64,000 bases of DNA from Closterium sp. NIES-65 (taxonomy: Eukaryota; Streptophyta; Zygnematophyceae; Desmidiales; Closteriaceae), in the NCBI GenBank assembly GCA_948144175.1, contig CANXME010000417.1:37643-101642 (forward strand), written 5' to 3'. Every line of letters starts with the position of its first letter. The first letter of the stretch is position 1. The translations under genes and the position numbers were made by a program. The notes below the pieces were generated by a model that saw only the letters and a list, made by a program, of their open reading frames with translations, ran no database searches and was not told where the DNA came from. Positions 6,557 through 57,888 of the stretch are shown here, one piece after another.

Positions 6557-6648
6557 AGTGACTACTGCACAGTTGCCGGCCTGTAACTACGCAATAGGTA
6601 AGTGGTATCTACGTCGACCTGACTGAAAGGTAAGTCGTGTGCCGTCCA

Positions 6649-17100: not shown

Positions 17101-18590
17101 AGTCCACAGGCACCTACGTTGACGCGGTTCCTCCACCTGGGGCGAACATCGTCAGTGGCATGTGGATCTTCAGGGTGAAGCGGCCGCCAGGTTCTCCACC
17201 TGTCTTTAACGCGTGGTATGTGGCTCGTGGCTTCTGTCAGCGGCAGGGAGTTGACTACTTTTAGACCTTCTCTCCCACCCTGAAGATGACCACTCTTCGG
17301 GTGCTGCTGCACATAGCCGCTCAGCGCAACTACGAGCTTCACTCTCTTGACTTCAGCACTGCTTTCTTGCAGGGTAGCCTGCACGAGGAGATCTGGCTGC
17401 GCCGTCCACCTGGCTTCACTGGGACTTTTCGTTTTGGCACCCAGTGGAGCCTCCGGCGGCCAGTCTACGGTCTCCGCCAGGCACCACGTGAGTGGCACGA
17501 CACATTGAGGACTACACTTGCGGCTCTTGGGTTTGCTCCCTCTATTGCCGACCCTTCACTATTTCTGCGCACCGACACCTCTTTGCCGCCGTTCTACATC
17601 CTCGTGTACGTCGACGACTTGGTCTTTGCCACTGCTGACACTGCTGGACTCGCCCACGTGAAGTCCGAGCTGCAGAAGAGACATACGTGCACAAACCTCG
17701 GTGAACTGCGCAGCTACCTTGGCTTGCAGATCACCCGGGACAGAGCACGCCGCACCATTACCCTGACTCAGTCACACATGGTGCAGCAGGTCCTTCAGCG
17801 CTTCGGCTTCACGTACTCCTCGCCTCAGGCCACTCCTCTACCTACTCGCCACTCGCTCTCAGCTCTGCCTTCGGATGAGTCCGTAGAGTCGAGTGGCCCG
17901 TACCCAGAGCTTGTTGGCTGCCTCATGTACCTGATGACCTGCACACCACCTGACCTCGCATACCCTCTTAGCATTCTCGCACGCTATGTTGCTCCTGGGA
18001 GACACAGACCGGAGCACATGGCTGCAGCGAAGAGGGTGTTGCGCTACTTGTGCAGTACGCCGGGCATGGGGCTTGTGCTTGGAGGGCAGAGTCCAGTGGT
18101 CCTCACTGGGCACGCAGACGCTTCTTGGGCTAACGACCCGGCTATGCAGCGGTCGTCATAGGGTTATACCTTCAGCCTTGGTTCCGGCTCTGTTTCGTGG
18201 CGGGCTACTTGCTCGTTTTCTGTTCTCGACTCTAGTTGAGAGGCTGAGATCTACGCAGGAGCCATGGCTGCTCAGGAGCTTTGCTGGCTCACCTACCTGC
18301 TGACTGACCTCGGAGAGCCGCCTCGTTCTCCTCCAGTGTTGTACGTAGACAACAAGGCCATGCTGGCCTTGTGTCGGGAGCAGAGACTAGAGCACAGAAC
18401 GAAGCATATTGCTCTCCGCTACTTTCTTGCTCGTGAGCTGCAGCAGCGTGGTCAGCTGCGTCTTGCGTACGTGGCCTCTGAGGCCAACACTGCTGATATC
18501 TTCACCAAGGCACTTGCGCCTTGTGACCATCAGCGCTTCTGTACTCAGCTGGGCCTTGTGCTTGTCTTGCCTCACTTGCTCACCTCTTGA
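14179..18590 (+). pseudogene. Element 3 pol: integrase, RT and RNase H with stops and frameshifts
   Basis: Broken copia pol. 14326-15168 holds the protease end, pre-integrase (LLWHHRLGHPSLPRL, CVPCVEG) and integrase (LHMDVWGP, LHSDRGG). The frame is lost after SDRGG, so the catalytic Glu segment is scrambled. 15138-17264 covers the integrase end, a Gly/Ala-rich linker of short repeats (about 15640-16330) and the RT start; it stops at TAG 17262-17264. 17286-18161 is the RT core with DFSTAFLQG and YILVYVDDL; it stops at TAG 18159-18161. 18264-18590 is the end of RNase H (VDNKAM, ANTADIFTKAL). Both TAG codons correspond to CAG in element 4. Confidence 0.9.
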
Positions 18591-21698: not shown

Positions 21699-24101
21699 AT
21701 GGATTCGGGGAGAGCTGATGTCAGCATGGGGTTTGTGGAGGCGGAGGATTTCGGGCAGCACGTGGACTTGACGCAGCGGATTCGCGAAGTGCTCGCGAAT
21801 TACCCCGAGGGTACCACGATTCTCAAGGAGCTGATTCAGAACGCCGACGACGCTGGCGCTTCCAAGGTTCGTTAGGATCCGAGTCATCTCTCTTTGAAAA
21901 AGCCAGATGGTTGATTCCTGATTCAATCTCGAGGGTTCCACGACTCTCAAGGAGCTGATCTGATTCAGAACGCCGACGATGCTGGCGCTTCCAAGGTTCG
22001 TTATGATTTCGTTGACGCCAGAACAATTCTGAGGTATTATGCTGATGGGTTAAATTAGATGCTTAAAGAGATTGACGGGCGGACTTAACCAGATGCCTGA
22101 TGGCGTTGACCTACTTGACCAGATGCCTGATGGCGTTGACCTACTTGATTAGATGCCTGATGGCGTTGACCGACTTGACCAGATGCCTGATGGCGTTGAC
22201 CGACTTGACCAGATGCCTGATGGCGTTGACCGACTTGACCAGATGCCTGATGGCGTTGACTGACTTGACCAGATGCCTGATGATGCCTCCTCTGCCCTGC
22301 ACTCTTCACCCAATCCATCCCCAATCCAACAGGTCTCCTTTCTGCCTGGACCATCGCACGCACGGCTCGGGATCGTCTCGTCTACGCGCCCCTCGCCCAG
22401 TTCCAGGGCGCTGCGCTGCTCGTTTCAGATGAGGATTTGGCTTGATGCGCCTTCATCCCTCTCGCATCCGCTCCGCACTCCACTCCCCAGTTCTCCAATC
22501 TCCCCAATTCCCAATAACCCCGATTCCCCAACTTCCGCCTCCAGGTGTCCTTCTGTCTGGACCATCCCACGCATGGATCGGCATCGCTCGCCTACGCGCC
22601 CCTCGCCCAGTGCCAGGGCCCTGCGCTGCTCGTGCACAACGACGCTGTCTTCTCGGATGAGGACTTTCCCTGATGCTCCTCAAGCATCCTCTCATCCCCT
22701 CTCCACTCCCCAATCCTCTATCTCCCAATTCCTTGATCCCCGATTCCCCCCAATCCATGGTACTCTAAACACCAATCCTCGTATCCCCAATCCCCGGTGT
22801 CTGACCGCCTCCAGGTGTCCTTCTGTCTGGACCATCGCACTCACGGCACGGCGTCGCTCGCCTCCACGCCTCTCGCCCAGTTCCAGGGCGCTGCGCTGCT
22901 CGTGCACAACGACGCTGTTTTTTCGGATGAGGATTTTGCAAGCATCTCACGGGTGGGAGACAGCGGCAAGCGCAAGCAGTCCTGGAAGACGGGCCGATTC
23001 GGGTGAGCGGGTTTCCATCCATAACATGTATCAAGTGTGACAAATGCGCTGCTGCTCGTGCACAACGCCGCCCGCCGCCTTCTCAGACGAGGACAGTGCG
23101 AGCATATCATCAAGAGTCGAGTCGGGGACAGCAGCAAGCGCAAGCAGTCCTGGAAGACGGGCCGTTTTGGGTGGGTTGGTGTCTATGACAACTATTCAGC
23201 GTGCCACATGCACTGCTGCTCTTGCACAACGATGCCGCCTTTCTAGATGAGGACTTTGCGAGGATCTCGCAGGGTGGGGGACAGCGGCAAACGCAAACAG
23301 GCTCGTTGGCTCGGGTGGGTAGGCTTATAATCAGGTAAAAAATGACGTTTCACGTTTGCTGCTGGTGCAAATTTCATTCATGCTGCTTCAGTGTGGCCTC
23401 TCACCCTCATTTCATCCCCGTGGAGTGGAGTGAAACTATATCACATCCTCATCTCACACACCTCCCTTGTCTCATCCCCTCTTCTTTTTTTCCAACTTCC
23501 CTTTCTGCGTTCCACTGCCTTCCTTCATTTTCCTCCCCACCCCACCCTTTTCCCTCCCCTCCCCTTCTGTCCCGTCCTCCACTCCCTCCCTCACTTCTCC
23601 CCAACTCAGTCTATTATCTCACGGACACAGACCTCCCTTCCTTCATCAGCCGTCAGTTTGTCACCTTCCCTCCCTCTCTCGTCCCACTTCCCATTGTTCC
23701 CCCTTCCTCTTCACCCCCCTCCCCACCCCTCATCCCTTCCCCCTCACAGCATCGGATTCAACTCAGTCTATCATCTCACGGACCTCCCCTCTTTTGTCAG
23801 CCGTCAGTTCGTCACTTTCTTCGACCCGCACTGCGCCTACCTGCCCCGTGTCTCCGCAGCCAATCCGGGCAAGAGAATAGATTTCGTCGCTGCCCGAGCG
23901 GTGATGGCAGCGCAGCGGGACCAGTTCTCCCCGTACTGTGCATTCGGGTGCGACATGCAGAGGCCGTTTGCGGGGACGCTGTTCCGGTTTCCGCTGCGGA
24001 CGGAGGAGCAGGCGGGGAAGAGCAAGCTGTCACGGCAGGCGTACAATGCAGCTGACATGGCGGCTCTGTTGAGGGAGTTTGAGGTGCGTTTGTGTGTGTG
24101 T

Positions 24102-24150
<49 letters not shown>

Positions 24151-27100
24151 TGCGTGCGTGTGATTAGTGGCAATTCTTTGCTCTGCTGGATAGGTAGATG
24201 ATTTTTGGGTGCGACATAGGGACGCTGTTTCAGTTCCCGCTCGCGGGAGGGACGGAGGAGGAGGCGCTCGCGGGTGAGCAAGCTGTCAAGGCAGGCGTAC
24301 GATGCCGCGAGGTGACTTTTGAGTCGATTCAAGAGTCACCTAGCAGGCGTTCGCGGGTGAGACGTCTCAAAGGAAGCTGTCAAGGCAGGCGTACGATGCC
24401 GCTAACATGGCTGCTCTGTTGAGGGTGTTCTTAATGCTTTCTTTCTTCCCTTCTCCTCCATACTCACGTTTAGGGATGAGCAAGGTGGCGAACACCTGTT
24501 GGGTTCGCCTCGAACACGTTCGAGGCGAACCGAACAGGCTTTGTTTTTTAGCTCAAATCGTTCGCCGAACAGTGTTCGATGTTCGCCCGAACACGTTCGT
24601 GTTCGGGCCGCTGCTGAAATTTGCCCGCGACGAACACGAACAGTGTTCGAGGTTCGCCCGAACACGCCTCCACAGGCGAACAGCGAACACCTGTTTTTTC
24701 CTAAACTGTTCGCCGAACCGAACAGTGTTCGGTTCGGCAAAAGAGGGTGTTCGACAAGGGGCGAAGACGAACATGTTCGTGTTCGCCCTTTGCTCATCCC
24801 TACTCACGTTCCCTGTCTTCCCAAGCCGATCACTGCTCTTCCTCAAGCACGTGGAGCGAGTGGACGTGTTGGAGTGGCATCAGGGAGCGTTTCGAGAACC
24901 CTGTTTCTTCCCTTCCTCCCGGTGCTCACCCCCCCGTCTTTCCAGGCTGAAGCAGTCTCCTCTTTGCTCTTCCTCAAGCACGTGGAGCGAGTGGACGTGT
25001 TGGAGTGGCATCAGGGCGCCACCGCCCCCGCACCTCTCTTCTCCTGCCGCATCTCCTCCCCCGACTCCCCCCTCCGCTTCCACCGCCAAGCCTTCTCCCG
25101 CCTCGCGCGCCCTGCTGCTGCTTCTGGTGCTACTGCTGGTGCTGCAGCGCCTGGGGCGTCAGGGGCTGGAGGGGGGGCAGGGTCAGGGGTGATTTTCAGT
25201 GAGAAGGACAGCACGGATTTTTATGAGATTGGGTTCGTTTGCGAGTCGTTTTCCCCGGGAAGTGCCCCTGAAACTGCTGGAGGGACTAAGGAGGCGGCTG
25301 GGGTGGGTGAGAAGGGGGGAGGGAGGAGGGAGGAGCGGTACTTTGTGTCTCAGAGGATGGGAGGGGCGTTGGGTGCGGTGGGGCGCATGGCAAGGCGAGC
25401 AGCGGAGGAGTATGATATTCACCTGGTGCCGTGGGCGTCTGTGGCTGCTAGAGTGGGCTGTGAAGGAGACACACCAGACGCACCGGACGCCTCTTTCCAG
25501 GTGAGATTGAAAATGGCATGGCGAAGCGAAAAGCAGCGGAGTATGATATTCGCCTGGTGCCGTTGGCGTCTGTGGCTAGGAGTGTGAGGGGGGCGTCTGT
25601 GGCTAGGAGTGTGAGGGGGGCACTGACGCACCAGATGCACCCGAGGCTCATTTCCAGTCCAGGTGAATGTCCGCTCGTTTTCTCTTCCGACCTCCGTTCC
25701 TTGCTTTCCGCCCGTCGTTCCCCACCTCCGTGCTTGTCCTTCGTTCTTCAGAGCCGCCCATCTGCGTCCTGCCTCTCCCAGTGCGTTCCAATCCAACCTT
25801 GCAATGCACATCAACAGCCGCGCTGCTCTCTTGTTCAGCATCCTATTTCCCCCTTGTTCCGCTCTCCCTGGTAACCTCCCCAGTCAATTGAATCCCAGGG
25901 CCGGGCCTTCTGCTTCCGCCTCTCCCAGTGCGCCCCAACCTCCCAGTGCATACCAACGACCACTTTCAGTTCTCCTCCAGCGTTCTTACCCATCGCCACC
26001 TCCCCATTCCCCCCCGCTCTGCCCTCTGTCTGTCTATCACCATCCCCATGCCAGGGCCGGGCCTTCTGCTTCCTGCCTCTCCCAGTGCGCCCCAACCTCC
26101 CAGTGCACATCAACGGCTACTTTGAGCTCTCCTCCAATCGCCGAGATATTTGGTTTGGCGAGGATATGGACAGAGCAGGCCGCCTTCGCTCCCAGTGGAA
26201 CGCCGCCCTGCTGCAGCTCGTTGCCGCCCCGGCGTACCTTGATCTGATTCTCGAAGCCGCCCAGCGAATCGGGCCGCGAGCGGAGTATTTTGGACTGTTT
26301 CCCGCGGGCCCCACCTCGGAGCCCTGGCTTGGGATGGTCGGGCAGCTGTACAAAAGTTTCGCAAAGCTGCCCGTTTTGTATCCCAGAGGCCCTCAGGAGT
26401 TGCTAGCTGGGGTTGGGGCAGCTGGAGCTGGTGCTGTTACTGGTTTGACTGGTCCTGCTGCCGGTGCTGCTGCTGCGGGTGGTGGTGCTGGTGGTATTGC
26501 TGGTTTAATGGTGAGGGTGGGAGGAGGATCAAAGGGCGAAGCAGCTTATAAAGGGGACGGAAGCTGGGTGTCTCCTGCCACTGCTGTGTTCAGCGATGAG
26601 GAATTCCGCGATCCAGATGGCTTGGAGCTAGCTCTGGTTCGGGAGGGCCTGCCGATCGTCCGCGTCTCGCCGAACCTCCGGGAGATGCTCTTCCGGTGGT
26701 CCGTTTCCGAGCCTAGAATCACCATTCCTAGCGTGGTTCGGGCAAGGTTGAAAACGCCAGGTGTCCACAGGGGATTGGAGAACAGAGAGGACGCGTTACT
26801 GCTGTTAGAGTATTGTTTAGGGGATGTGGTAGATGATGAAGCTGCAGAGGAGCTGGATGGGCTTTTGCTGGTTCCTCTGGCGAATCAGAGCCTGGGGAGG
26901 TTTGAGAGAGTGGGGGTAGTTGGGAGAGAAATAGTTGTAGCTGCGTGGGAGAGAGGAGGGGAGGGGGAGAGAGGAGGAGGAGGAGGAGGAGGAGGAGGAG
27001 GAGGAGGAGGAGGAGGAGGAGGAGGAGGAGGAGGAGGAGGAGGAGGAGGAGGAGGAGGTGGAGGAGGAGGAGGAGAGGGAGGGGAGAGGTGGAAGGGGAG

Positions 27101-30100
27101 GAGGAGTGTGGAGTATGAGTTACTAAAGGACAGGGCGGGAGGGAGAGTAGTGGACCTAATGGGTGTGAGGGAGGATGTGTATGAGCGTCTGAGGAACATC
27201 GCACTCTCTCCCTCTGCAGGCAATCTCTCCCCACTCACTCCCTCACTCCTCCTTCGCCTGCTCCAGTCCCTGCTTCCCCCCGACTGGTTCGGACAGGACG
27301 AGGTTCCCTGGTTCGGCAGCGTCTCCGAACCTGCTGGTTCGGGGAAGCGCGCACTTTCAGCGGCTGTGGCGCCGCCGTCTGTCCGATGGGTCGGGCTTCT
27401 TTGGCAGTATCTGGCTGCCAGCTGTAAGGATTTGACCGCGTTTTCCGGTTGGCCGCTGCTGCCGACGAAACAGAAGACACTGTGTGCGCTGGAGAAGGGA
27501 CGGTCTAGGGTGATTTTGGTTGAGGAGGAGGAGGGGGTGGAGGGGGTGGAGGGGGAGGGGAAGGAGAGAAAGGACGAGGGCGAGGGGAAGGAACGGGTTT
27601 TGTCGGCAGGTGGCGGTTTTCATGCAATTTCGGGGTTGCTGGTGAGGCTGGGCTGCCGTATTCTCTGGAGGAAACTCCCTTCTGGTGTGGCGGAGGTGGG
27701 GCATGTGGGCGAGGGTGGGGATGTGCAGGGGGAAGCTGTGAATGGGGAGGCTCTGCAGGTGGCGCATCCGCATCTGCACGAGTTTGTGCGGCCAGCCACA
27801 GGGGCAGGTGTGTTGGACGCTCTGCAGTCAGCAGCAGACTGGCATGGAGTGCCCTTTGCCATGCTCTTCCAGATGGCTGAGACCGCTCTTGATAAAGGTT
27901 CTCCTTCTGCTGCTGCTCCTCCTGGTGCTGCTGGTGCCCGTGGTGGTGGTGCTGCTGGTGTGGCTGCCCCAGCTGGTAGGACAGCTTCGGGTGGCTTGCT
28001 GTCCGAGGCTGCAGTCGAGGCTCGGCGGCAGCTTCGGGAGTTCCTGTGCTCGCCGCAGTGGTACGCTGGGAATGCAATGACGGAGGCTCGGCGCGTGCGG
28101 ATCTTCAAGTCTCTGCCCATCTTCGAGGTCTACAGCAACCACCCTTCCACCCCCCCCACCAGTAGCAGCAACAGCAACAGCACCAACACCACAACTACCA
28201 GCACCATCAGCAGCAGTAGCAGTGGAAGCACCACGGGCACCAACCCGACCGCCATCCATGCCTCCCTCCCTCTCTTTGTCGACCTGTCATCCCCATCCAT
28301 TCAGCGCTATCTGGCACCCTCAGGGGTGGAACCAGCCCTGCTAGGCGAGTCCTTCCTTTGCCCCTCAGACGACCGCGAGGCTGCAGTGCTCTCCCGCGCC
28401 CTCGCCATCCCCACGCTCCCCCGCCCGGCGTTTTTCAAGATGCAGGTGCTCGCTAGGGTCCAAACGCTGCCGCCCGGGCTGCGAAACAGGACGATGCTTG
28501 CCGTGCTGCAGGAGCTGCCGCAGCTGTGCACTGCGGATCCGGGGTTGCGGGATGTGGTGGCGAATCTGGCGTTTGTGCCAGCGTGGGATGGGAAAGGGGA
28601 TGGGCGACAGCAGCACAAGGTGCAGCAGCAGGAGGAGGTGGAGGGAGGGGAAGTAGCAGGCGCATCAGCAGTAGGAGCAGCAGGAGGGCCAGGTGCGGCA
28701 GGTGCACCTGAGATGGATTCAGATGTAGGAAATGAGACGCTTTGCCGCCCAGTGGATCTCTATGATTCTCGCAACCCCGAGCTCTGCCACCTGCTTCAAG
28801 GAATGGCTGGCAACTGGTTCCCCGCCGCCCCGTTTTCGTCCTCTTCTGCCCTTGAGATGCTACTCAGCGTGGGGCTCCGCAGTGCGGTTACCACCGAAAC
28901 CATTCTCAGCTGTGCTCGCGCTGTGGAGAGCATTGCCGCTACAGATGCGGCTGTAGCGCGGGTGCGCGGACGGGTTCTTTTGTCCTATCTGGACGTGAAC
29001 GCGGCAAGATGGGTGCCTGTGGCGCAGGGGGGAAGCGCAGGGGCAGGGGGGGTAGGGGGGAGAAGAGGCATGGGGGGCGGAGGCGGGGGAGGGGGAGGAG
29101 GGGGAGGGGCAGGAGGGGGTATGTTTGCACGTGTATCGAGCCTGTTCCAGAGCAGTGAAGCAGCGGAGGAGGCTCAGCGCGCAGCAGCTGAAATGGCCTC
29201 GTTTTGGAACGAGCTGACCTCGATCTCCTGGTGCCCTGTGCTCGTTCCCTCCCCTGCCCCGCCCTTCCTGCCTTGGCCAAGGGGAGGGGAGGCAAATGCA
29301 AGTAGCGAGGAAGAAAACGTATCAGGCGGGACAGGAGGTAAAGGGAGGGGAAGAGAGAGGGCAGACGAGTCTCGGCCTAGCCCCGTCGCTCCTCCTCGCA
29401 TCGTCCGCCCACAGATCGACACCTGGCTTGCGTCAGCCAGCCTCCGGATCCTGGACGGCGAGTGCCGCTCCACGCTGATGTGGCACCAGCTAGGATGGGC
29501 GCGGCCGCTGACGGGGAGTGTGCTGGCGGCGCAGCTGCTGGAGCTGGGGCGCGTGTGTGGCGCGGAGGTGGCGGATAGGGGCGCGGGGAAGGCCCTGGCG
29601 GGGGCAGTGCCGAGGATATACACGATGCTGTCGGACATGCTGGGGCAGGAGGAGATGGAGGTGGTCAAGGCGATTCTTGAGGTGAGTGCTTCGCAGGGCA
29701 AGGTTTCCAGGAGGTGGGTGGGTCTGTCAGAGTACGGGCCGATCTCCATGGTGCTGCTCGTTAGATATGCTGGGGCAGGAGGAGATGAAGGTGGTAAAAG
29801 CCGTAAAAGCCGTGATCCTTGAGGTGAGGATTTCTCAAGAAAAAGCCTATAGTTATCTCTTTCTATTCTTGAATGCAAGGAAGACTTCTGCCCGTTCCCT
29901 AGCTGCTGCGTGGATATGCTGGGACCTGGGTCAGCGCAGGAGGAGGAGATGAAGGTGGTGAGAGCCTTCTGTAGGTGATCCATTCGGTGGTGTCCATTCT
30001 CCAAGGACATCTTAACGAGAAAAGGGTGCACCTGAATTCTCCACCAACTTGCTTCTCTCCCTTTCCCTCTTTTTCCATTGCCTTTGCTCCCACCCCCCTC

Positions 30101-33100
30101 GTTCCCTGCTTACCTCTCATCATGCGATCCCAACCTTGCTGTCTTCCGAGACCTCCTGCTCGCCTGGGCGTGCACCGCTTAGGGGGAATGACCTGCTCAC
30201 CTGGGCGTGCACCGTGTAGGGGGAATGACCTGCTCGCCTGGGCGTGCACCGCTTAGGGGGAATGACCTGCTCGCCTGGGCGTGCACCGCGTAGGGGGAAT
30301 GACCTGCTCGCCTGGGCGTGCACCGCGTAGGGGGAATGACCTGCTCGCCTGGGCGTGCACCGCGTAGGGGGAATGACCTGCTCGCCTGGGCGTGCACCGC
30401 GTAGGGGGAATGACCTGCTCGCCTGGGCGTGCACCGCGTAGGGGGAATGACCTGCTCGCCTGGGCGTGCACCGCGTAGGGGGAATGACCTGCTCGCCTGG
30501 GGGTTGAGGATCCCTCACAGGCTCTTACAAAACAATCCAACCTGCTTTTTCCCCCATGTTTCTCTTCTTCCCCTGCCAACCCTCCAGGGCTGCAGGTGGG
30601 TGTGGGTGGGAGACGGTTTCTGCTCCACCACAGAATGCGCCTTCTCCGGTCCTATCCACCCACCTCTCGCCCCACCTCCGCATCATCCCGGCCAACTTCC
30701 GCCTTTCGAGGCCTCCTGCTCGCCCTGAGGGTGCACAGCTTTTGGGGGGAATGAGAATCCCTCACAGGCTCAGAGAAAATAATTGAGCCTGATTATTCCT
30801 CTGTGTCCCTCTTCTCCCCCTGCCCCCCCAACCCCAGGGCTGCAGGTGGGTGTGGGTGGGAGACGGTTTCTGCTCGACCACAGAGTGCGCCTTCTCCGGT
30901 CCCATCCACCTCGCCCCCTACCTGCGCATCATCCCCGCCGACCTTGCCGCCTTCCGAGACCTCCTGCTCGCCCTGGGGGTCCGCGAGTGCCTCTCGGGGA
31001 ATGAGTACGCCGCTGTGCTTGCGAGCATCGCTAAAGACGCGCAAGGCCGCCCGCTCGCGCCGCGCCAGCTGGCGGCTGCTGTCTGGCTGGTGCAGCATCT
31101 GGCGGATCTGCAGTTTGATTCCGGGGCGGCGGGCGGGGGAGGCGGGGTAGGAGCGGGCGGAGTGGGGGGTGGGGGAGGGGGAGGAGAAGGAGTGGGGGTT
31201 GTTGCGAGGGGAGGAGGGGGAGGGAGAGGAGGAGGCATGGTGTATGTGCCAGACGCACAGGGAATTCTAGTGCATGCCTGTGAGCTTGTGTATAACGATG
31301 CTCCCTGGTTACCCCAGTTCATGCGCTCGACTCCCCACTCTCCTCCCTCCTCTCCTTCCGCCGCTCCTTCCGACGCTCCCTCCCCTCCCACTTCCACTCC
31401 CTCCTCTCACCATGCCTCTGCGGCAAACCCAGGCTTCCCAAGCAGCCACGCAGGCTCGGCGGCACCGCCCGAACCTACCCTCCAGGTTCGGTTCGTCCAC
31501 GCCAAGATCTCCAACGACGTGGCAGACAGGCTCGGCGTCCGATCCTTGCGTCGCCAGCTCCTATTGGACAGCGGAGCAGCATCCATGGCTCTCTCCCTCC
31601 ACGCCTCTGCCTCCTCCCTCTTCTCCCCCACATCCCTAGCTGCTTCTACCGGGGCTGCTTCTAACGGGGATGGGGTGGAGGCGTTCGGGCAGCACGAGGC
31701 TCTGACTACTCGTTTGAAGCACATAGTGGAGATGTATCCGGAGGGGCCGGGGGTGCTCTGTGAGTTGGTGCAAAATGCGGATGACGCCGGCGCGAGGGAA
31801 GCGGCGTTTCTTCTGGATCACTCCCGATTCGGCGCTTCTTCAGTGCTCAGCCCGCGAATGGCTGACTGGCAGGGGCCGTCTCTGTATGCTTACAACGATG
31901 CTGTGTTCTCGGATCGCGATTTGATTGCGATCTCGCGCATCGGGCAGGATAGCAAGCTGGAGAAGCCGAGTGCTATTGGTCGGTTCGGGCTCGGTTTCAA
32001 CTCAGTCTACCATTTCACCGACGTCCCGGGGTTTGTTTCCGGGCAGAATCTGGTGATTTTTGACCCGCACGCATCGAACCTGCCCGGAATCACGCCCTCC
32101 CACCCGGGCCTGAAGATCAGCTTCGTCGGCCGCGGCCTCCCGGACCAGTTCCCGGACCAGTTCCGCCCGTTCCTCCTGTTCGGGTGCGACCTGCAGTCCC
32201 CGTACCACGGCACTCTGTTCCGTTTTCCGCTTCGGTCCGAAGCTGCGGCGAGTCGGAGCGAGATCAAGCACGAGCCGTGCTCTCCAGAGGACATCCGGCA
32301 TCTGTTTAAATCCTTCCAGCGCTCGGCGACAGAAGCGCTGCTGTTTCTGAGAAACGTGGGACGGATTTCGGTTTTCGAGAGGATAGATGCCGGGAGTGAG
32401 CCGAAGCTGCTGTTTTGTGCACAGAGAGTAGTTGCTGGTGAGGGGGGGGCGTCAGGAATGCCTTTTGTTTCAGCACTTCCGTCGCCAGGAATGGGTCTGA
32501 GGGCCCTGGGGGATTCGGCTGATGGGGGCAGTTTGCAGCGAGCTATTTTCGATTTTGTTCGGGGCAGCCCGCAAAATCCTCTGAATAAGGACCAGTTTTA
32601 CCACAAGCTGCAGCGGGCAGCTGAAGGGCAGCTGCCGAGGCAATGCGGGCGGATCTCGATTTTAGTGACTGATGGGACGGGACACGTGGCGGCTTCTGAT
32701 TGGCTCGTGTCGAATGCGCTGGGCGGGGGGCGGGCGAGGGAGTGGGCTGTTGCAGTGGAGAACCGTCCGAGAGGGTTCTTGCCATGGGCCGGCGTTGCTT
32801 GTCTTATTCAGTGGGAAGAGGAGGGGAACACCGGGCTGTTGAATCTGATGGGAGTGGGGGAAGAATCAGAGGAAAGCAGAGAAGGGAAAGAGGAGGGTGG
32901 TAACCCACAAGAAGAGAAGCGCGGATCAGGTGGGCTAGGAGGCAGCTCCGAGGATACAGGTAAGGAAAGAACGAGGCTGCAAGGAAGGGCCTTTTGCTTC
33001 CTGCCCCTGCCCGTGAAAACGAACCTCCCGGTGCACGTCAACGGCTACTTTGAGCTCTCCTCCAATCGCCGAGACATCTGGTTCGGCGACGACCTGGCAG

Positions 33101-39100: not shown

Positions 39101-42100
39101 TCCCAGGTGAGTCTCGTGCTCCAACTCCTGCACAGCTGACGAATCGAGGTGGGTACTCTGTGCACAACACACACGTGCCTCACGCTGTAGCGGAGCGCCG
39201 CCTAGGCTCGCGGCAGGTGCTCTGTGCCCCACGCCCTGCCAGGTGAGTCTCGTGCTCCAACTCCTGCACAGCTGACGAATCGAGGTGCGCACCGTGTGCT
39301 CAAAACATGTGCCCCACGCCATAGCACCGTGGCGTGCCTTGTCTCGCCCTCCGTCCAGCACGCGTTGTTGCTGGACGGCCCTTCTGCCGCCACCTCGCTT
39401 CCGTGCCTGCCAGGTGGGTCTTGGTCTTGTGCCCCAGCGCCCATGCACCTAGTATCGCAATCAAGTCACGTCATTGCGCCTCCTCCTTCTCTCGAACCAT
39501 CCTTATCGTTCAATAGAGTGAACAGTACGGCAGTGAACCGCTCTTGTCCTCTTTCTCTCCGTCCTTCTCTTCGCTTCTCTTCTTTACCTGCCTAACTTGT
39601 ATTCTCTCTCCAACCTACCCCTCCAGCGGTGGTGATATCGGAGCTGCTAGAAGGCTGGGCAGCGGACGCGCACCTCCTCCTCTTTGATCTGCTGGAGGTG
39701 GCGGATGCATGTGGTGCCCGGGGAGTGGAGTTTGTGTGGGACCAGCGGCACCACCCGGAGATCTCCCTTCTGCAACCCAACCTGGGTAAGTGCTGATCAA
39801 GCAGGGAGTGTTTAGAAACGTGTCCAACCTAGGTCCGTGCCGGTTTTAGCAAGGGTGCCTTGTGTTTATGAAATCAGCTGCCTTATATTTATGAGATCAG
39901 CTGCCTTGTAGTTATGAGATCACCAGCACCACCCGGAGATCTTCCTGTTCCAGCCCAACCAACCCTGGGTGGGTGAGGATTGCATGCGTCAGACAATCTC
40001 TCTGTGCTCTTTCAGGGATCTCATTGTTGCTGCCCATTCTGGGTACTTGGGGATCCGGAATTCACGAGTTGAGGGAAGGCTGGCCCTGCCATTGGATGCG
40101 TGTGGTGTGGTGCCCACAGGGTGGTGCAGGTCAACTCCAGAGTGGTGCCCCTCACTCACCGTTCCCTTCCACGGAGCTCAGCTCACATCAGAACACATCT
40201 CCCACCCGTACATGCACGCCTCTCCTCGCCCACTCTTCCATTCCCTGCTCTCTTGCTCCGTCCCCTTCCATTCCCCCTCACCCACATCTGCAGGTCAGTT
40301 CCAAGGTCCATCCCTCACAATCTTGTTCCAAGGAGCCCAGCTCACATCAGGGGACATTTGCCACCTGCACACGCCTCCCCTCATGCACTTTTCCGGCCCC
40401 CGCCCTACTTGCTCCATCTCACCCCCTCTCTCACTCACTCCCCTGCAGGTCAATTCCAGGGTCCTTCTTTCACCATCCTTTTCCACGGAGCCCAGCTCAC
40501 CTCAGAGGACATTTGCCATCTGCACACGCCTCCCCCCATCCGTCTCCGCGACGCCACGTGTCGCTACGGCACTGGTCTGCTGGGCGCATACCACCTCTCC
40601 GACCTCCCCCTCATAGTCTCAGGAAGCTTCCTCTACGCCTTCGACCCCTCGGGTCATCATCTTTTCTCTGGTTCGGCTGGTGGTGCTGCTGGTGCTGGTG
40701 GTAGTAGTGGTGGCTTGTCTGGTGCTCGTGGCTCATTAGGGTCACCTGGTGGATCGAGGAGGAGAGGAGGAGGGGGGAACGACATGGCTGCTCCTGTTGC
40801 TCGAGCCTTTTCCCTCAAAGGTACCACCGCTCCTGTTGCTTGAGCGTCTGATCAAGGTTCTCGGTCTTTGTCTGGTTCATTATCCTTTTGAGGCGCCTCA
40901 AAAGGTTCTCGGTCTTTGTCTGGTTCATTATCCTTTTGAGGCGCCTCAAAAGGTTCTCGGTCTTTGTCTGGTTCATCATCCTTTTGAGGCGCCTCAAAAG
41001 GTTCTCGGTCTTTGTCTGGTTCATTATCCTTTTGAGGCGCCTCCAAAGGTTCTCGGTCTTTGTCTGGTTCATTATCCTTTCTGTGTGCATCCCATCCCAG
41101 GTGGTCAGTGTTGCCCAGTTCCTATCGAATCAACATTTCTTCCGTTACCCACTTCTGTTGCCCCCCTCGCTCATCCAGGCTCAGGCTCCTCAAGCTTCAT
41201 CAATCGATTCCCTGACCAGTTCCGGCCCCTCACCTTCGCCCCTTCCTCCTCCTCCTCCTCTCACTCTTCTCACTCCTCTCACTCCTCTCACTCTTCCCAC
41301 TCCTCTCACACCTCCACCACCGCCACCTCTTTCTGGGACGAAAACACGGTACTGCGCTTGCCCCTTCGCACGCAGCAGCAGGCAGACTCTAGTCCAATCA
41401 GGAGAGGCCACGTGGCAGGGCCGTGGGATATTGTTCTGATGGCGCAGCTGCTGCAGCAGCACGGGGCGGCGTCGCTTGCCTTTTTAAACTCTGTGGAGAC
41501 GGTGAGTGTGCTGTCATGCCATGTAGGCTTCAGAAAAAAATCAAAAACCTGTTTGGTTCGACCCAAACATGTGTTTCCACACCTCGTGACTCACACCTTC
41601 TTTTTGAAAGTTACCCCTGTCTTGAAATCTGTTTCTTTCTCCCAGCTTCCTCTTACTACAACTTCTCCTCTCCCCCTTCTTAATCCGTTCACCCTATCCC
41701 TTGCACGCCAGGTGTCGTTCTCTGTGTGGCCGGCTGACGCTGTCCAACCAGAAGAGTTTTTCCATGCCCAGGTCAGTCTCTCCCACCCAAACCGTGTTCT
41801 GAGTCGACTCAAAACACTACTTTTTCCATGCTCAGGTCAGTCCCTCCTCTTAGAACTTAGGCTTAGAAGCGATGCATTAGTAATGAGCTTGAAGCTCTTT
41901 AAATACATCCAAGAAGGGGAGGGAATGGATGGGGAAGGGAATCGGGGGCAATCCTAGGGATTAGGGGTAATCCCAAGGCAATCTCCAATTGGTGGGTTGG
42001 AGATTGCTTGGAGATTACATTTGGGTTTGGTTGGGATGGAGGTGTACACCCAACCAAACACAATGTGCAAACTACACTACTCTAGGATATAGAAAATACA

Positions 42101-45100
42101 AAGTACAAAGTGTGAGATTGAAGGCTAACACTAACACCTCCCACCCGAACCCGTGAATCATATTCGAGAATTCTTAAAAGTTGTTGTCTTCTCATGTTTT
42201 AATATGCGGGGACTGGTGCTGCTTGCTTGCACACACAGACACATCATCCCGAGCCTTTGTGTTCCTTTGCCCCTCCTCCCTCTCTCTTCAGGTCCGAGCA
42301 GGCATGGGGTCACTGAGAGCGCCCTTTCAGGACCGCAAGGTTTGCAAGCAAGGCTTCCTCTCCATCCTCTTCGCCCGAGGTGGGGGAATTAGCAGAGGCA
42401 CCAGCAGCAGCAGCATTGAACACTCACTCTTTCCCTCCCTCCCCTCCCCTCCCCACGGGTCCGAGCGGGCATGGGCTCTCTCAGGGCGCCCTTTCAGGAC
42501 CGCAAGGTGCGCAAGCAGGGATTCCTCTCCAGCTCCTGGAGGGAGGGAGCAATAGCGGCAGCAGCAGCAGCAGCATGCAGCAAAACTTGGCTGTTTTCCC
42601 TCTCCCTCCCCCTCCCCCTCCCCACAGGTCCGAGCAGGCATGGGGTCACTCAGAGCGCCCTTTCAGGACCGCAAGGTGCGGAAGCAAGGCTTCCTCTCCA
42701 GCCTCTTCGCCCCGGGAGGTGGGGGCAGCAGTGGCACCAGCAGCAGCAGCAGCGGCGGCAGCCTGAAAGCGTTCACTCTTGACGTTCTCACCAAGTCGCA
42801 GTCCCTTGCCCCACTGCTGCCGCTGCTGGGGGGTAGTGGTGGAGGGGAGGGAGGAGAGGGTGTGGAAGGAGATGAGGGGCTGGGGCGTGGGGAGGGTGGA
42901 AGGGAAGGAGAAGGGGAGCAGAGGCTGGAGAAAGGGAAAGGGACAGAGGACGTGGGAGGGGAGAAGGGGACACTGCAGAAGCAGCAGCAGGAAGAGGAAA
43001 GGAGGAGTGGAGAGAGGTTGGGGAAGGTTGCGGGCCACGCGGGAGGTGGTGGAAAGAAGGCTGGAGTCTCTGACGTGGCGATTGATCGTTGGCTTGTGGT
43101 GCAGACGTTTGGAGCTGGGAGTTCCCTGGATATGGCAAGAAGCAAGTGAGTTTGAAGCTAGTTCTCAGTTACTAAATCTGCCCCACACAAGGTACCTCTC
43201 CTTCAATCAACCTCTCTCCTGTGACCGGCGCCACCACCAGAATCCCCCACAATGGTCTTTGATTTTCCCAGGATATGCTCCGTCTACTGATGGTCTATCT
43301 ATATTAAGTGCCTCGATTTTTTGTTTCCCCGCTTCCCCTCCCCTCTATCCCATCCCACAGGAGGTATCTCTCCTTCAACCTCTCACCAGTGGCCGGCGCC
43401 GCCACCCGAATCCTCCGGAACGGCGAGATCATCCCCTTCGCCACCATCCACCCCTTTGCCCCACAACCAGAAGCATTACCACCCCTCTCAACCGTCTCCT
43501 CTTCCTCCTCCAACCTCTCCGCCCTCCGCCCGCTCCTCCCGCCCTCGGTTGTTCTCGCGCCGCTGCCCGTGCCTCTCAACCTGCCCTTCCCAGTGGCTCT
43601 TTTCGGCCACTTCCTCCTCCTCCGCAACCCCGGATCCCCTCGCTCCCTCTTCCTCCCTTCCCCCTCTTCCTCTCCCGCGTCCTCCTCCCTCTCCTCCACT
43701 CCTTTGCCGCCGTCTGCTGACGTGGCACCGGACGCCACGTCAGCAGCTGCCACGTCACCGATGGACGCGCTGATGCAGGCGTGGAACGAGGAGCTGCTGA
43801 CAGGTGTCCGCGAGGCGTACATCGGCCTCCTGCTGGAGATGCAGCGGATCAGAATCGGCGAATCACGGCTCGTATCGGGCATATCTGGCGTTTCAGGAGT
43901 GTCCGCAGCAATGTCGAGTAGTATGTCCCAGCAGTCTCAGGGGTTCAGAGGCAGCAACCGGCAGCATCAGCAGTATCACCATCAGCAGCAGCAGCAGCAG
44001 TTGAGGGGGGCGTTGTTTCCAGCAGACCAGTTCTACTCCCTCTTCCCTCGCTCCTCCGGTCCTGCTCGTGCTGCTCTTCCCGCTATCCCCACTGCTTCCT
44101 CGTCCCCGCATCCCACCTCTTCTCAGCCTGCTTTCCCTGAGAATGAGCCGAAAAGACAGCCAATAGCAGCAGCAGGCGCTGCTACAACAGGCGATGAGGT
44201 GGCGCTGCGTGATTGGATGGTGCGGCCGATGTACGTCCGGCTGGCAGAGCTGCCCGTGTGGCAGCTCCACAGTGGAGCAGCCGTGCAAGTCAGCCAAGGA
44301 ATGTTCCTCGTCCCGCCCCCGGGATCTTCAACCACCCTGTCTATAAGCACCCCTTCGACCAGCACTCCTGCCAGCAGCAGCTCCGTTATAAGCACATTAA
44401 GCACATCTGCTAATAGTGGAGCGCCGCCAGAAGCGGTGTGTGAGTTTCTGCGGGCGCACTACCGCGTGTTCAGCGTGCCGTGGGACCTGGTGGGGGAGCT
44501 GCATGCGGCCGGCGTGGCCACTCAGGCGCTGACACCTGGCATGCTGCGGTCCCTGCTGCGCGGGCCGAATGCCACCACGAGCTCTGTCCCCGTGACGACA
44601 CAGGTATGTTTTTTCTTCAGCCAGGTGATCACACAGGTATGTTTTCTCGTCCTGATGAAATGTCAAGAGCAGGTACTTTCTGTTGTGGTTCGGGTTTCCG
44701 TCCTGATGAGTGCGTTCTGATGAGTGCGTCCTGATGAGTGCGTTCTGAAGGAAAAAACGAATGGAGATTGAAGAGAAGTTATGGTATTTTGGAACGAAAC
44801 CAAGTGAACTCTCTCCTTTTATTTATTCCCAGATAAGCCAATCTCTCTGTGATGCTGTGCGTACCTCATGGAATGCTGCTGTGATGATTTGCACTCTCGT
44901 ACACAAAAGCTCCAACAAACCGGTGAAGATTTTGACACTACCCTTTCCCCCTCCTACACTGTAATCACCACCTCTTCCCTTGAACCCCTTTCCTTGTCCC
45001 CCCTTTCCTCTTCCCCTCTCCTCCCTTCCCCCTCCCGCTCTTTTCCCCTTGGTTTCCTTCGCCCAGGTCGATTTGCTGGAGTATTGCTGTGCCGACATTC

Positions 45101-48100
45101 AACTGCCCGACCCGGCCTCTTATCCCGTGCTGCCACCTGGCAGCTCATCATCTGCCAGCCAGGCTGGCAGCGCTGCCACGTCAGCCGCACCACGTGGCGC
45201 TGCAGGAGCGTTTAGCATGATTCCACTGCCCAGAGAGGTGCGGGCACTGCTGAGGGGCGGAGGAGGGGAAGGGGGAAGCAGAGGGGGAGGGGGAGGGGGG
45301 GGCGGGGGAAAGCAGAGGGTTAGGGGTGGGAGCAGCAGAAGCGTTGCTGCGGAGGCTGGAAGGGGCGAGGATGGGGGGGCTGGGCGGCGCAGCAGCAGCA
45401 AGGGGAGGGGGAGGAGGAGCAGGGGGCGGTGGCGGCAGTGGTGGAAGCAGTGGGTTTGGCTCGCGGGGTGGGTATGCTGGGTACGGTGGCGCTGCTGCTG
45501 TTGCTGCTGGTGGTGCTGGTAGTGGTACTAGCACAGCAGGGCATGGGCATGGGCATGGGCAGGGCTATGGGCATGGTGGGCAAGGGCAAGGGGATGGCAT
45601 GCGCAGTGATGCAGATGCCCTGGCGGATCTTATGGCTCAGTTCGGCCGCTCCGTGTTCGATTTCGGGCAGAATGTTCTCGACGAGCTTGATGCTGCCCGG
45701 GCAGGTGCGACGGGCAGCGAACAAATAAACTCGGGAGAAGGAAGGGGAAGAGGGGGAGGAGGGAGAGGAGGAGGTGGGGGAGGAGGGGAGGGAGAGGAGA
45801 GGCCTGCACTGACAGAGGAGGAAAGGGAGAGACTTGCAGCAGAGGAAGCTTTCAGGAAGGCAGCAGAAACCAAGGTTGCAGAAATGAAGGGCGTTCCCAT
45901 ACCTACTGGTACGGTGTCCGACCCTGCGTTCCGAGCCTTCCAATCCGAGCCTCAGAGGCACGGTGGGGCCGGCGGGGGTCTGGCTAGGCTCGGGAAAGAC
46001 CTCCTCATAGTCGCCACATGGGACCAGCAGCGGCTGTTGCCGAACCTAGCGCACAGGTTCGTTCACCGAACCTGCCTGGCTCGCCAGCTTCTGAAAGCCC
46101 TCTTCCTGCACCCGAGGTTCTGCGAGCTGCTGACGATGCAGCCATTCACGTTGCGCCACCTGGCAGACGGGCTGGCTACAGTGTTTTCTCGGCAGCAGAG
46201 GGCGGAGGCGGAAGGAGAGATGCTGATTGTGTGGGGCGAGGGAGAGGGGGCGGATGTGTGTGGGGAGGAGGAGGGAGAGCAGGGAGAGAACCAACAGCAG
46301 CAGCAGCCACAGCAGCAGCAGCAGCAGCAGCAGCAGGAAGCAAATCGTCCAGTCACTGCCACCACAGCCATTGCAAGCAGCAGCAGTCTGCAGCAGAGCA
46401 CCTCTAGGGACTCGCCCTTGGGCCCTCTCTCTCCTGCCTGGCTCAGGGCCTTCTGGGCTCTGCTGAAACGCTCCTCCCTTTCTACGGCAACTGCTACCCA
46501 GGCACTTGGCAGCAGCATAGGGCAGCAGGAGTGGGTGGAGATCTTTGAATCATGGCCGTTGATTCCCGCCGTGACACGTGGCGGCAGTGTACTAGTCAAG
46601 GTTGCTTTCCGGGCAGCTGTTTTCGTCCCTCCAGATGCAGGTGCGGCTCCTGCCGAGCCTCCTGCTCAGCCTCCTGCCGAGCCTCCTGCTGAGCCTCCTG
46701 CCGTGCCACCTGCCGAGCCTGCAGTGCCTGTGTCAGGATTAGGAACTAGTGGGGAAGGTAGTTCAGGGGGAGGTGGCATTCAGGGCTGGGAATCTGCTGC
46801 AGTGGCAGCTGTAGGGTGGGCTGATTTTGGAGATTCAGCTACTGCTGGCACCTCTGCTGCCTCTGATGTATCTTCTCCTGTTGAGAGCTCTGAAGCTGGA
46901 GCAGCCAATGACAGGCTGCCACGTGGCACCACAGCAGAGTCTGAAACCAGAGGGACCACTACTCAGTACTCGCAGAAGCACCTGAGCTCTGAGGTTCGGC
47001 GGCTGCTGTGGAGATTCGGAGCGCTGGACCGGGACCACCCGTGGCTGCTCCCGGTCCTGCGGGACAGGCTCGGCATCCCGATCTTCGACCGGAGGTTCGT
47101 CGCTTGCTCCGAAGCACTCCGGTGCTGCGAGGAGGCTCGGATAGGAGGCTCGGACAACACCCATCACACCCAGCAGCAGCAGCAGCCGCAGCTGTCTCTG
47201 CAGCAGCTGGTGCTGGCTCGGCTGCTAGCAGTTAAATCATTTGATCAACTTCCTCCCCCTGCTGCTCTCGCTCTAGCTCTCTCTCCTCAGGACTGTGACC
47301 ACTTAGTCTCGTTCTTCGCCTCTCACGTCCGCTCGCCCTCCTCCTTTCTCCAGTCCCTCGCCAGCACCATCTCCTCTTCTTCCTCCTCTCCCTCGCCCTA
47401 CACCCCTCAAGAGCTCGCGCTTATCCGCTTGCTCCCAATCTTCAAAACCACCCTCGGGAATTTCACAGCCATTGACCCTGACTTGCACTGCGTCGCGCCA
47501 CCTGTCGCATTCTACCAACCAAAAGATGCCACGTGTCTGCAGGACAGGGATTCTCCCGGGGAGAAAGCCCTGCTGAGCTGTCTCGGCGTGAGGGTCATCG
47601 ACGAGGCGGATGTTCTCGCGAAATTTGCGCTGCCCGGATTTGACGGGCAGGGCGAGGAGGAGAGGGAGAGGGTGCTGCAATACGTGGTGCAGCATTGGCA
47701 GCAGCTGAAGCAGAAGCCAGCCGTTGTGGACGCGCTGAAAGAGACAAAGTTTGTGATACCAGCGCCGCCCGCCGCCGATGCTGCCTCTCTCTTCCCTCCT
47801 CCTGATTCCTTCCCTGCAATCGCTCTCTCTGTTGCCGCTGCCACCTCAGCACCTCTCACCACCTCCTCCTCCCCCCACCCTTCCCACCCTCTCGACTCTT
47901 TCCCCTCCGCTTCAATTTCTTCTGCCCGAGTTCGCCCGTGTGATCTCCTCGACCCAGCCAACGACCTCCTCCGGCAAGTTTTCGTGCACTGCCCAGAAAG
48001 GTTCCCGGGCGGGCAGTTTGAAACTTCGCGGTGGCTGCCCGTGCTGCGGGACTGTGGCCTCCAATCCGCCTTCACTCCTGACCTCTTCCTCCAATGCGCT

Positions 48101-51100
48101 TCCGCCGTGGAAGCGCGGTACGTCTCCTTCCTGGAATCTTCCTCTGCTGCTGCAGCAGCAGCTGCTGCAAACACTGCTGGTGGCGCAGCCGGTGTTGCTG
48201 CTGCTGGTGGCAACTCTGCATCGGATTCGTTTCTGCTGTTTGGGGGAGAGGACCCCTCTCAGGAGAGCGACACAGGGGACTTTGAGAATGTGGATTTGTT
48301 TTCGGGAGGCCGCACCACCGGTGGCAGCAGCAGCAGTGGTGGCCTGTCGATTGCTGCTGGAGCAGCAACAGGAGGAGGGGGGGTGGTGGGAGGGGGCCCA
48401 GTGGTGGGGGTGGAGGAGGAGCTGTGGGTGGTGGCAGGGCGGCTGACAGAGGCGCTGCTTGCAAATGTGGCGGTGGTGTTTGGCAGCAGTGCCATGGAGT
48501 CACTGGGGCAGATCAGGTGAGTCACCGTTGTTTCTGGATTCCAGCCTCCTCAGCGAGTGTCACTTTACATGGTTTCCGCGCCTCCCCTAGTGGTGGTGGG
48601 GGTGGAGGTCCTGTGGGTGGTGGTGGGGGTGGAGGTCCTGTGGGTGGTGGTGGGGGTGGAGGTCCTGTGGGTGGTGGTGGGGGTGGAGGTCCTGTGGGTG
48701 GTGGTGGGGGTGGAGGTCCTGTGGGTGGTGGTGGGGGTGGAGGTCCTGTGGGTGGTGGTGGGGGTGGAGGTCCTGTGGGTGGTGGTGGGGGTGGAGGTCC
48801 TGTGGGTGGTGGTGGGGCCGCTGACAAAACCGCTGCTTGCCATTGTGGCCGTGGTGTTTGGGAGCAGCGCTATGGAGTCGCTGGGGCAGATCAGGCGCGT
48901 TGGCGTTGGTGAGGGAGGTGGGCTGTTGGTGGAATAGGATGTATGTCCGAGGTTGAGGGTTTATGGTTCGGGGTTTGGGGTTTAGCTGACAGATGTGCTG
49001 CTGTGAATGTGGCTCAAGTGTTTGGGAGCAGTGCTATGGATTCGCTGGGGCAGATCAGATCAGGTGTGGTTTTATACAGGTGTGTTTGATACAGGAAGCG
49101 TGCCAAAGGTTGAGGGTCCATGGTTCAGGGTTTAACCTGACAGAGGCGCTTCTGGTGCATGTGGCGGCGGTGTTCGGCAGCAGTAACATGCAACTCCTTT
49201 CTTTATAGGCGCCTCAGAAGCGGTCTAGCCCCCCCCTCCTCCCATGTCCCTCCCCCAGGTTCATTCCAGCAGAGTGGGATATGCCAGCAAGCTGGGCGGC
49301 AGTGGACAGGCATAGTCTCACCAGCTTCTTTCTGTGCTACCCTCTCCTTCCCACACTTGCACTCCCATTACCCCACTTTCCTCTCCTTTCCTCCCCCCCT
49401 CTCCCTTCCGCCACCCCCCATCTCAGGTTCATCCCAGCAGAGCGAGGAATACCTACAGGCGGGGCAGCGGTGGACCGGCGATTTAGGGTTTAGGGTCTAT
49501 GCTGCCTGCCTGTGTGGCGCCTCTCCTGGTCCTCGCTTCCTCCCTCCCATGGCCCCATGCATGCACCCACCACCCCTCTCTCTGACCTTCCTCCACGTTC
49601 ATCCCAGCAGAGCGGGGAATACCGACAGGGGGGGCAGCAGGGGATAGGCATAGCCTTACCAGGTACTCTTGCTGTGATTGCTACCCTCTCCGTCCCGCAC
49701 TCGCACTCCCATTACCCCACTTGCCCCACTTCTCCCCCTTCCCGACTTTCTCCTCCCCCCTGCTCTCTCCCACCTCAGGTTCATCCCAGCAGAGCGCGGA
49801 ATACCGACAGGCGGGGCAGCGGTGGACCGGCGGTGCCTCGCCAGCTATGCTGCCTGCTGTTTGCGGAATGCCGAAAGAGCTCCCTCCTCTTGCCGCACTT
49901 CAACCCCTCTTCCCCACCCACCACCAGGTTCATTCCAGCAGAGCGGGGAATACCAACAGGCGGGGCAGCGGTGGATAGGTGGTGCCTCGCCAGCTATGCT
50001 GCCTGCGTGGCGCCGTCTGATTGGCCGCTCGCGTGGACGGCGGTGCCTGTGCTGGTGAGGGAGGCGTTTGTGCCGCCGCAGTTCACGTGGCTGAAGCTCA
50101 GCCTCAAGTCCCCGCCGCCTCTCTCCCTCGTTCTCACTCACCTCAAGGTACGCTCTCCCACACCCATGTACGGTAGTCTCATCTCATGTCATGTGCACTC
50201 GCTCGCATGTACTAGCAGCGCCTTTTTTGGGCCTTGGTCCTGCTGCAGTTCACGTGGTTCAAGTCACGCACTTATTCCGAAAACACTCATGCGTGCGTCG
50301 TCGCATTGTCCCGTCGTCCCATTCATGTAGTCCTCTTCACCCTAGTCCCTCTACCCACCCGTTCTCGCTTTTTTCTCCCTTACAACATTCCTCTTCTTGC
50401 CCTTCTCTTCGTCCCATCCCTACACACACAGGTCTTGGGTCGAGGGGGGGGAGAGGAGACCCTCGCCCGTTGGCCAAACATCGTAGGAGGCAAGTCAGTG
50501 GAAGAAGCGTTTGAGCAGATTTTCAAGTTCCTCGCCTCCCATTGGTCCTCCCTCGACCCGCCCGACATCCGCTCCTTAAAGCCCGTCTCGCTTGTCCCCG
50601 TCGCCAACGGCACCCGCCTCGTCCCAGCCTCGGCGCTCTTTGCCAGGCTCGGCCCGGACCTCGCGCCGTACCTGTTCGAGCTGCCTCGGCGGTTCCTGCC
50701 ATTCTCCCAGCTGCTGGTGGACCTTGGGATGCACGACTCCCCCTCGCCCTCTGCCCTCTCCTCCTTCCTCTCTGCCTTGCACCGCTCTTCCGGAGGGCAG
50801 AGGCTCAACCCGAACGAGCTACGAGCTGTGCTCAGAATCTTGAGACTCGTGTGTGAGGGAGAGGAGGAGAATGGGGGAGGTGGAGGAAGAGGAGGAGCAG
50901 CAGGAACGCTGCCTTGTCGCTCTGCAGCGCTCTCTCCTCTCCTGGCTCACGCCGTGGTTCCGGACGATTCGTGCCGGCTCGTCCCGGCCCATTCCTGTGT
51001 GGTGGTAGACCCAGCTGCCGTTTTCCTAGCCAATGAAATCGACCCACGCTGCCTTCGTCTCGTGCACCCGCTCCTGCCGCCGAGCCACGCGGCCAGGCTC

Positions 51101-57681: not shown

Positions 57682-57888
57682 CACCCCCATAGGCAAAGTG
57701 GGGGAGAACAAGGGGTCACAAGACAAGTCAAGCAAAGCAGACAAAGCTCAGGGTGGATCACAACGTCACCACACAGTCCTAGCACAAGGTCAAGGCCACA
57801 AGGCCAGTTCGCATGTAGGAGTACACACATATAAATAAGGCTAAACAAGAAAGAGCAGGTATATATATATGTAAGAGTACAAGCAAGG

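Follow-up and report, generated by a model that had tools for sequence, protein, structure and literature searches.

An accepted route of intron gain is the tandem genomic duplication of a segment carrying AGGT (PMC3443670, PMC2891723), and an RdRp gene of potato has gained an intron by a duplication that crossed an intron-exon boundary (PMC4974935). Small tandem duplications also arise when broken DNA is repaired: in C. elegans without HELQ-1 (helq-1) they are proposed to follow from the failed annealing of an extended end in synthesis-dependent strand annealing (PMC8654963), and CST-guided action of Pol alpha at breaks produces them as well (PMC8355091). The subject of this work is a sacsin-type gene in a stretch of 64,000 nucleotides from Closterium sp. 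NIES-65 (the window, part of the 101,642-base contig C417 in an assembly of 874 Mb), whose exon ends recur as diverged partial copies, here called echoes, in the adjoining introns. We conclude that splice junctions here repeatedly undergo partial tandem duplication, with young events too few to prove a preference over intron interiors, and that the echoes are probably traces of repeated duplication in faulty DNA exchange or repair.

The gene lies on the forward strand at window positions 21699-53330 and comprises 18 exons and 17 introns, its splice sites, like all gene models used here, being derived from sequence and family matches alone. The terminal 150 bp of each exon were compared with introns by Smith-Waterman alignment, with low-complexity sequence masked and a threshold score of at least 50. 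A same-strand echo was found in the adjoining intron at 17 of 34 exon ends, whereas the reverse strand of the adjoining introns gave no match at any of the 34; interior exon segments never matched their flanking introns (0/194). Non-adjacent introns gave three matches in 544 comparisons, each to the other flank of short exon 2 or 8; copies of short exons match from the other end too, because short exons can be duplicated almost whole. When positions 21000-54000 were compared with themselves, 60 direct matches and 16 inverted ones emerged, the latter mostly palindromes and simple repeats. The junction echoes in this gene are therefore confirmed as real. An initial annotation of the window had described the copies as same-oriented, as lying downstream of 3' ends and upstream of 5' ends, and as never derived from exon interiors or distant exons, and all of this holds; equal numbers on the reverse strand were not seen. 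The rule on sides is largely forced, because in a tandem duplication across a junction the exon stays whole and it is the intron that receives the extra copy. Above-threshold echoes, at least one per intron, occur in introns 1, 2, 3, 4, 5, 6, 8, 9, 12, 13 and 15, which are 11 of the 13 introns that the annotation had named; the echoes it placed in the other two, 14 and 16, score 18 and 33 (best non-adjacent scores 22 and 27), short of the threshold, and no echo reaching 50 was found in introns 7, 10, 11 and 17.

The expectation that such copies would reach beyond one gene was borne out. Two chaperonin genes (L018 and L019), chosen for undoubled family matches, carry echoes at 16 of their 25 junctions and none on the reverse strand (0/25); the 153 non-adjacent comparisons yielded 12 matches, in each of which the intron lay on the opposite side of the short exon being compared. 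Further examples were found in myosin, P-type ATPase and neighbouring L31 genes. The stretches L012-L017, L022, L023, L026 and L027 had been selected for doubled matches and were left out of the junction frequencies, which rest on three genes (the sacsin-type gene, L018 and L019). In a count by eye of five family tables with 446 rows (93, 85, 56, 77 and 135), a partial second copy on the same strand was seen at about 11 loci, along with two inverted pairs, the 77-row table of PF00664 being the single one of the five in which no doubled match was seen. All six stretches taken from doubled-match loci hold, again by eye, an echo in which AG or GT stands at the corresponding place. After minisatellite-like matches had been filtered out, duplications of 100-400 bp period formed 37 clusters in 43.0 kb of the three genes versus 3 in 65.5 kb outside genes, a contrast that is suggestive and not clean because the outside DNA, as read from a list of open reading frames (ORFs), consists largely of retroelements; with L31 and the selected myosin stretches L026 and L027 included, the figure is 60 clusters in 55.9 kb. 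Kinesin exon fragments form inverted pairs on opposite strands a few hundred bases apart (C511:712945-713361, also on C1725, and C1052:556971-557362), unlike the direct echoes.

A second copy of the sacsin-type gene on contig C1789 is 98.3-99.7% identical by aligned segment, with the alignment running through the echoes, and we take it to be the other haplotype. The array in intron 12 has, counting the exon, three units of about 168 bp in the window haplotype and seven in the other, a difference of 672 bp, in line with the earlier claim that the process recurs and that copy number varies. Over 241 bp of echo and spacer in another gene, two contigs show 100% identity. Tandem copies whose array length varies between contigs could raise the suspicion of an assembly or collapsed-repeat artefact, but divergence between copy and exon reaches about 29%, two contigs carry the same echoes and several gene families are affected, and we consider an artefact extremely improbable. 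The unit period is below 280 bp in 28 of 53 exon-echo pairs, and 13 of these 28 (sacsin, L018, L019) fall at 147-172 bp, which is about the size of a nucleosome repeat.

The way in which echoes differ from their exons bears on their origin. For the codon-position tests we used one best echo per junction, at 32 junctions, and a simulated neutral expectation in which the echo decays freely while the exon takes synonymous changes, so that about 45.5% of differences fall at third codon positions. The observed share is 0.611 (185/303; z 5.5, against 0.455). The excess is concentrated at the junction: in the 40 bp nearest the splice site third positions account for 95 of 124 differences (77%), versus 93 of 194 (48%) beyond (Fisher 4e-7), and the differences beyond 40 bp fit the neutral expectation. 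Cuts at 30, 50 and 60 bp gave pooled Fisher p values of 4.7e-5, 1.5e-6 and 7.7e-5, and the near and far shares are 0.78 versus 0.44 in the sacsin-type gene and 0.76 versus 0.54 in the chaperonins, where the far part keeps some excess at the 30-bp cut (0.59). Expressed as divergence, third positions near the junction differ at 95 of 381 sites (25%) and positions 1 and 2 at 29 of 763 (4%). Neither of two simple causes accounts for this: hypermutability of third positions is unsupported by the haplotype single-nucleotide polymorphisms (23/7017 at third positions versus 30/9816 in introns), and GC-to-AT decay is contradicted by symmetric third-position changes (107 versus 107). Gaps in the exon-echo alignments are not multiples of three in 37 of 47 cases, and because these break the frame many echoes must be dead as coding sequence; three near-duplicate pairs among the 53 were dropped from the gap, GC/AT and rate-gradient counts. 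The intron flank was aligned at the junction for 36 pairs, after 17 of the 53 with a poorly mappable junction had been dropped: over 40 bp its identity is 0.59, where unrelated splice flanks give 0.53, and the 95th percentile of this null is exceeded by 6 of the 36 pairs.

These numbers bear first on the simplest account, in which ordinary local tandem duplication happens everywhere, selection spares only those copies that cross a junction or sit inside an intron, and the constrained exon arm stays recognisable while the intron arms fade twice as fast, with nothing special happening at junctions and no second homolog involved. Such duplication accounts for the whole topology, for complete classical units such as the 98.5% identical 342-bp unit in L022, for broken frames of the kind that dead copies would show and for the neutral codon-position pattern beyond 40 bp. 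It does not lead us to expect the third-position excess close to the junction or intron flanks that align worse than twice the exon divergence predicts, and intron-internal duplications of such size are rare, minisatellites aside; we think it unlikely. The initial annotation had proposed tandem duplication across junctions with the gene-proximal copy kept under selection. Its topology fits, but a plain neutral intron copy is unsupported because of the third-position excess near the junction and the almost unalignable intron flanks.

Selection at the junction itself was also considered. If the true site has to outcompete its duplicate, the synonymous sites and intron tail of the real exon could change adaptively, or else the echoes could retain a role in splicing. 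Exonic enhancers act within about 40 bp of a splice site, the distance to which the excess is confined, and echoes that reach the junction mostly retain the splice dinucleotides (AG in 12 of 13, GT in 11 of 12), so that selective loss of echo splice sites is not seen. That retention is, however, close to the neutral expectation, the third-position changes between GC and AT show no asymmetry, and the intron tails give the impression of replacement, not of mutation. We regard selection of this kind as very unlikely to be the cause.

We tentatively favour, at somewhat less than even confidence, aborted exchange between homologs that have exons in common and differ in their introns, which would make chimeric duplications at junctions. 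A break or exchange inside an exon would be repaired from a homologous copy, an allele or homeolog, with similar exons and diverged introns. Synthesis would cross the splice site into the foreign intron, and the extended end, failing to re-anneal, would be end-joined. The product would be a chimeric duplication in which the old exon end is left behind as the echo, while the functional exon would now owe its junction-proximal part, together with the intron tail, to the other homolog. The echo would afterwards decay, and the array would expand or contract by unequal exchange because echo and exon can mispair. In favour of this route we cite the echo frequencies and their density in genes, the copy-number difference between haplotypes, the excess of synonymous differences close to the junction, the introns that scarcely align beside it, the precedent of failed annealing (PMC8654963) and the presence in this individual of intron-diverged homologs, seen at one locus.

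That locus is a myosin gene on contigs C212 (L026, 960501-965900) and C2079 (L027, 880301-885300), which share 2404 bp at 99.3% identity. The introns of the two contigs cease to align upstream of one exon and, as far as examined, the short matches that remain fall on the exon and echo copies. Within the exon where this switch occurs there are six differences, all synonymous, in the first approximately 85 bp, after which the two sequences are the same. A 401-bp probe from the diverged portion found a long match, at 75%, on the other contig alone, and we therefore take C212 and C2079 for diverged alleles of one locus. Both carry echo arrays, one with the recent 342-bp unit (L022) mentioned above, and some of the copies are whole exons with both splice sites. 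The switch mirrors the relation of exon to echo (a foreign intron, synonymous differences at the junction, identity further in), and it may be a natural example of the likely source. Heterozygosity looks patchy: the two myosin contigs turn from near identity to diverged alleles within an exon, and the sacsin region is steady at the level given above. A probe taken upstream of the haplotype divergence on C212 proved to be a dispersed repeat.

Several observations weigh against aborted exchange. At the sacsin locus no diverged partner is visible, the two haplotypes being nearly identical, and no echo was found that matches the exon of the other homolog better than its own. The copies on C212 and C2079 are mosaic and do not sort simply by contig, and two of them, A1 and B1, have an identical upstream intron flank despite 11 differences in 98 sites between their exons, which the simple model does not predict. 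At exons 6 and 10, and in L022, some echoes are complete classical units in which the intron part is homologous as well. At positions 1 and 2 divergence is lower next to the junction (29/763) than deeper in the exon (101/1187), which is unexpected unless it reflects alignment trimming, and third-position divergence as a plain rate drops with distance in the chaperonins and is flat in the sacsin-type gene.

Mosaic copies, haplotypes that differ in copy number and whole-exon copies with both splice sites would suit a pool in which exon and echoes keep trading sequence through gene conversion and through unequal crossing-over, both inside one haplotype and from one to another, each copy being functional at some times and spare at others and the synonymous bias recording time served as the functional exon. 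By our reasoning, however, simple two-way conversion predicts at most about a two-fold third-position excess, far below that seen near the junction, and homogenisation should keep the intron flanks similar too; we judge such a pool unlikely. A surviving paralog as the source of the echoes was rejected: among the best candidates, which were scored, the echo-plus-spacer query matched its own locus on two contigs only, and the diverged-allele query had its best long match on C212, other myosin loci giving 61-138 bp at 73-89%. Introners or another dispersed family were likewise rejected, as exon ends match only the introns flanking the same exon and the 241-bp echo with its spacer is confined to its own locus. 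Tandem or mutually exclusive exons are neighbouring exon copies. Most copies here are partial and most gaps break the frame, the exceptions being the whole-exon copies on C212 and C2079, and this class too was set aside.

How far do these junctions resemble the described systems? Like the potato RdRp duplication, in which the exon part of the upstream copy became intron and the splice signals came from the parental junction (PMC4974935), those described here are tandem and cross a boundary: a nearby same-strand segment spans the intron-exon boundary, with the intron part alignable in a minority of pairs. The potato case is one event in one gene, whereas here about half of the tested junctions in three genes are affected, often with several copies, at donors and acceptors, and with divergence biased towards synonymous sites. 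The AGGT model likewise adds intron sequence by same-orientation tandem duplication of exon (PMC3443670, PMC2891723), but there an exon-internal segment creates a new intron, while in this genome it is junctions already in place that are copied, lengthening an intron that was there before. AGGT intron gain would also put a copy of the preceding exon at the 3' end of an intron and one of the following exon at its 5' end, beside opposite splice sites; the echoes sit on the side of their own exon, as at exon 1, where the period is 124 bp, and we rejected it as the route. An extended end that fails to anneal and is end-joined is proposed for helq-1 as well, where the duplications stem from loss of the helicase (PMC8654963); the putative cause here would be intron heterology between homologs. 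Break-induced small tandem duplication by CST and Pol alpha is alike in its product, but that route gives no reason for the association with junctions or for the synonymous bias (PMC8355091). Single junction-crossing duplications are thus already known; no description of a genome-wide form of junction duplication was found in the open-access titles and abstract openings searched.

The positions of the exons and echoes, all on the forward strand, are as follows. Exon 1 (21699-21866) has a 3'-end echo with the donor GT at 21930-22007. Exon 2 (22815-23002) is preceded by a distal and a proximal echo of its 5' end (22330-22423 and 22542-22667) and followed by two echoes of its 3' end within 23046-23300, the second at 23215-23300. 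Exon 3 (23750-24083) has a 5'-end echo at 23602-23668 and two 3'-end echoes within 24219-24429 (24219-24308 and 24371-24429), and exon 4 (24946-25500) has a 5'-part echo of 55 bp at 98% identity (24834-24888) and a 3'-part echo (25516-25577). Two 5'-end echoes of exon 5 (26055-29681) lie within 25749-25979 (25749-25818, and 25892-25979 with the acceptor AG), and a 3'-part echo lies at 29764-29801. At exon 6 (30838-36125) the 5'-end echo includes the acceptor and a homologous intron tail (30499-30732, 247-bp unit) and the 3'-end echo the donor and homologous intron (36233-36436, 211-bp unit). Exon 7 spans 36631-38660. Exon 8 (38972-39106) is followed by two donor echoes within 39235-39421, one mostly intron (39235-39325) and one with the exon 3' end and donor (39309-39421). 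A weak 3'-end echo of exon 9 (39627-39785), at 39915-39960, is sub-threshold with a score of 47 (best non-adjacent 27). Exon 10 (40449-40820) has two 5'-end echoes with the acceptor AG (40125-40384), and its 3' end is sub-threshold at 29. Exon 11 spans 41179-41501, and exon 12 (41712-41771) has a weak, sub-threshold 3'-end echo scoring 25 (41821-41847). The two 5'-end echoes of exon 13 (42628-43145), in units of about 168 bp, occupy 42272-42575 (six in the other haplotype), and that of exon 14 (43361-44603) lies at 43182-43248. Exon 15 (45067-48516) is followed by three 3'-end echoes within 48782-49190 (48782-48908, 48985-49058 and 49137-49190), and exon 16 (49928-50147) is preceded by four 5'-end echoes within 49230-49857 (near 49248, 49431, 49586 and 49768), with a possible 3'-part echo, seen by eye and sub-threshold at 33, at 50245-50272. 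Exons 17 and 18 span 50432-52903 and 53133-53330. The neighbouring ribosomal L31 gene, on the reverse strand, has an echo array with units of about 145-160 bp upstream of its last exon (54175-54698).

In the rebuilt model exons 1 to 14 give 5000 codons free of stops. The product matches the SACS domain PF25794 of Pfam (3.8e-33 and 1.4e-76, with a third match under the family cut-off) and the PDB sacsin structure 5v45 (1.2e-45), and it ends in a RING finger (PF13920, 9e-12). Land plants have a sacsin-like protein with a C-terminal RING. In exon 15 the reading frame shifts within a G-rich stretch (45253-45520); a small unrecognised intron seems likelier than a base error, because nearby haplotype indels are multiples of three. 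Minisatellites, a class distinct from the echoes, occur in the introns at 22082-22282 (30-bp units), 30155-30501 (37 bp), 40854-41080 (48 bp) and 48590-48817 (27 bp). Intron 3 holds an insert with several short palindromes (24480-24800), perhaps a mobile element, at which the haplotype alignments break. Copia-like retroelement frames, from the ORF list, lie on both sides of the gene at 1400-6586 (reverse strand), 11374-18161 (forward strand) and 57835-63245.

Intron lengthening and sequence gain are poorly resolved and proven recent events are few, and this one genome offers many structurally clear junction events. At least one of them is polymorphic, which makes rate, size, template and splicing outcome countable. 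The echoes also pose a puzzle for splicing: the true sites are presumably chosen despite decoy AG and GT dinucleotides in authentic exon context 120-350 bp away. We suggest that introns may grow by a route otherwise familiar from isolated cases. A more doubtful extension concerns deeply diverged homologs, in which exons might be the sole islands of homology, so that every splice junction would be a place where recombination fails into a chimeric tandem duplication; the echoes would be the scars of such failures, which could then be a main engine of intron growth and of a synonymous patchwork at exon ends genome-wide. If the exchange model is true, heterology at intron borders would itself be mutagenic, tying the divergence of populations to the structure of their genes.

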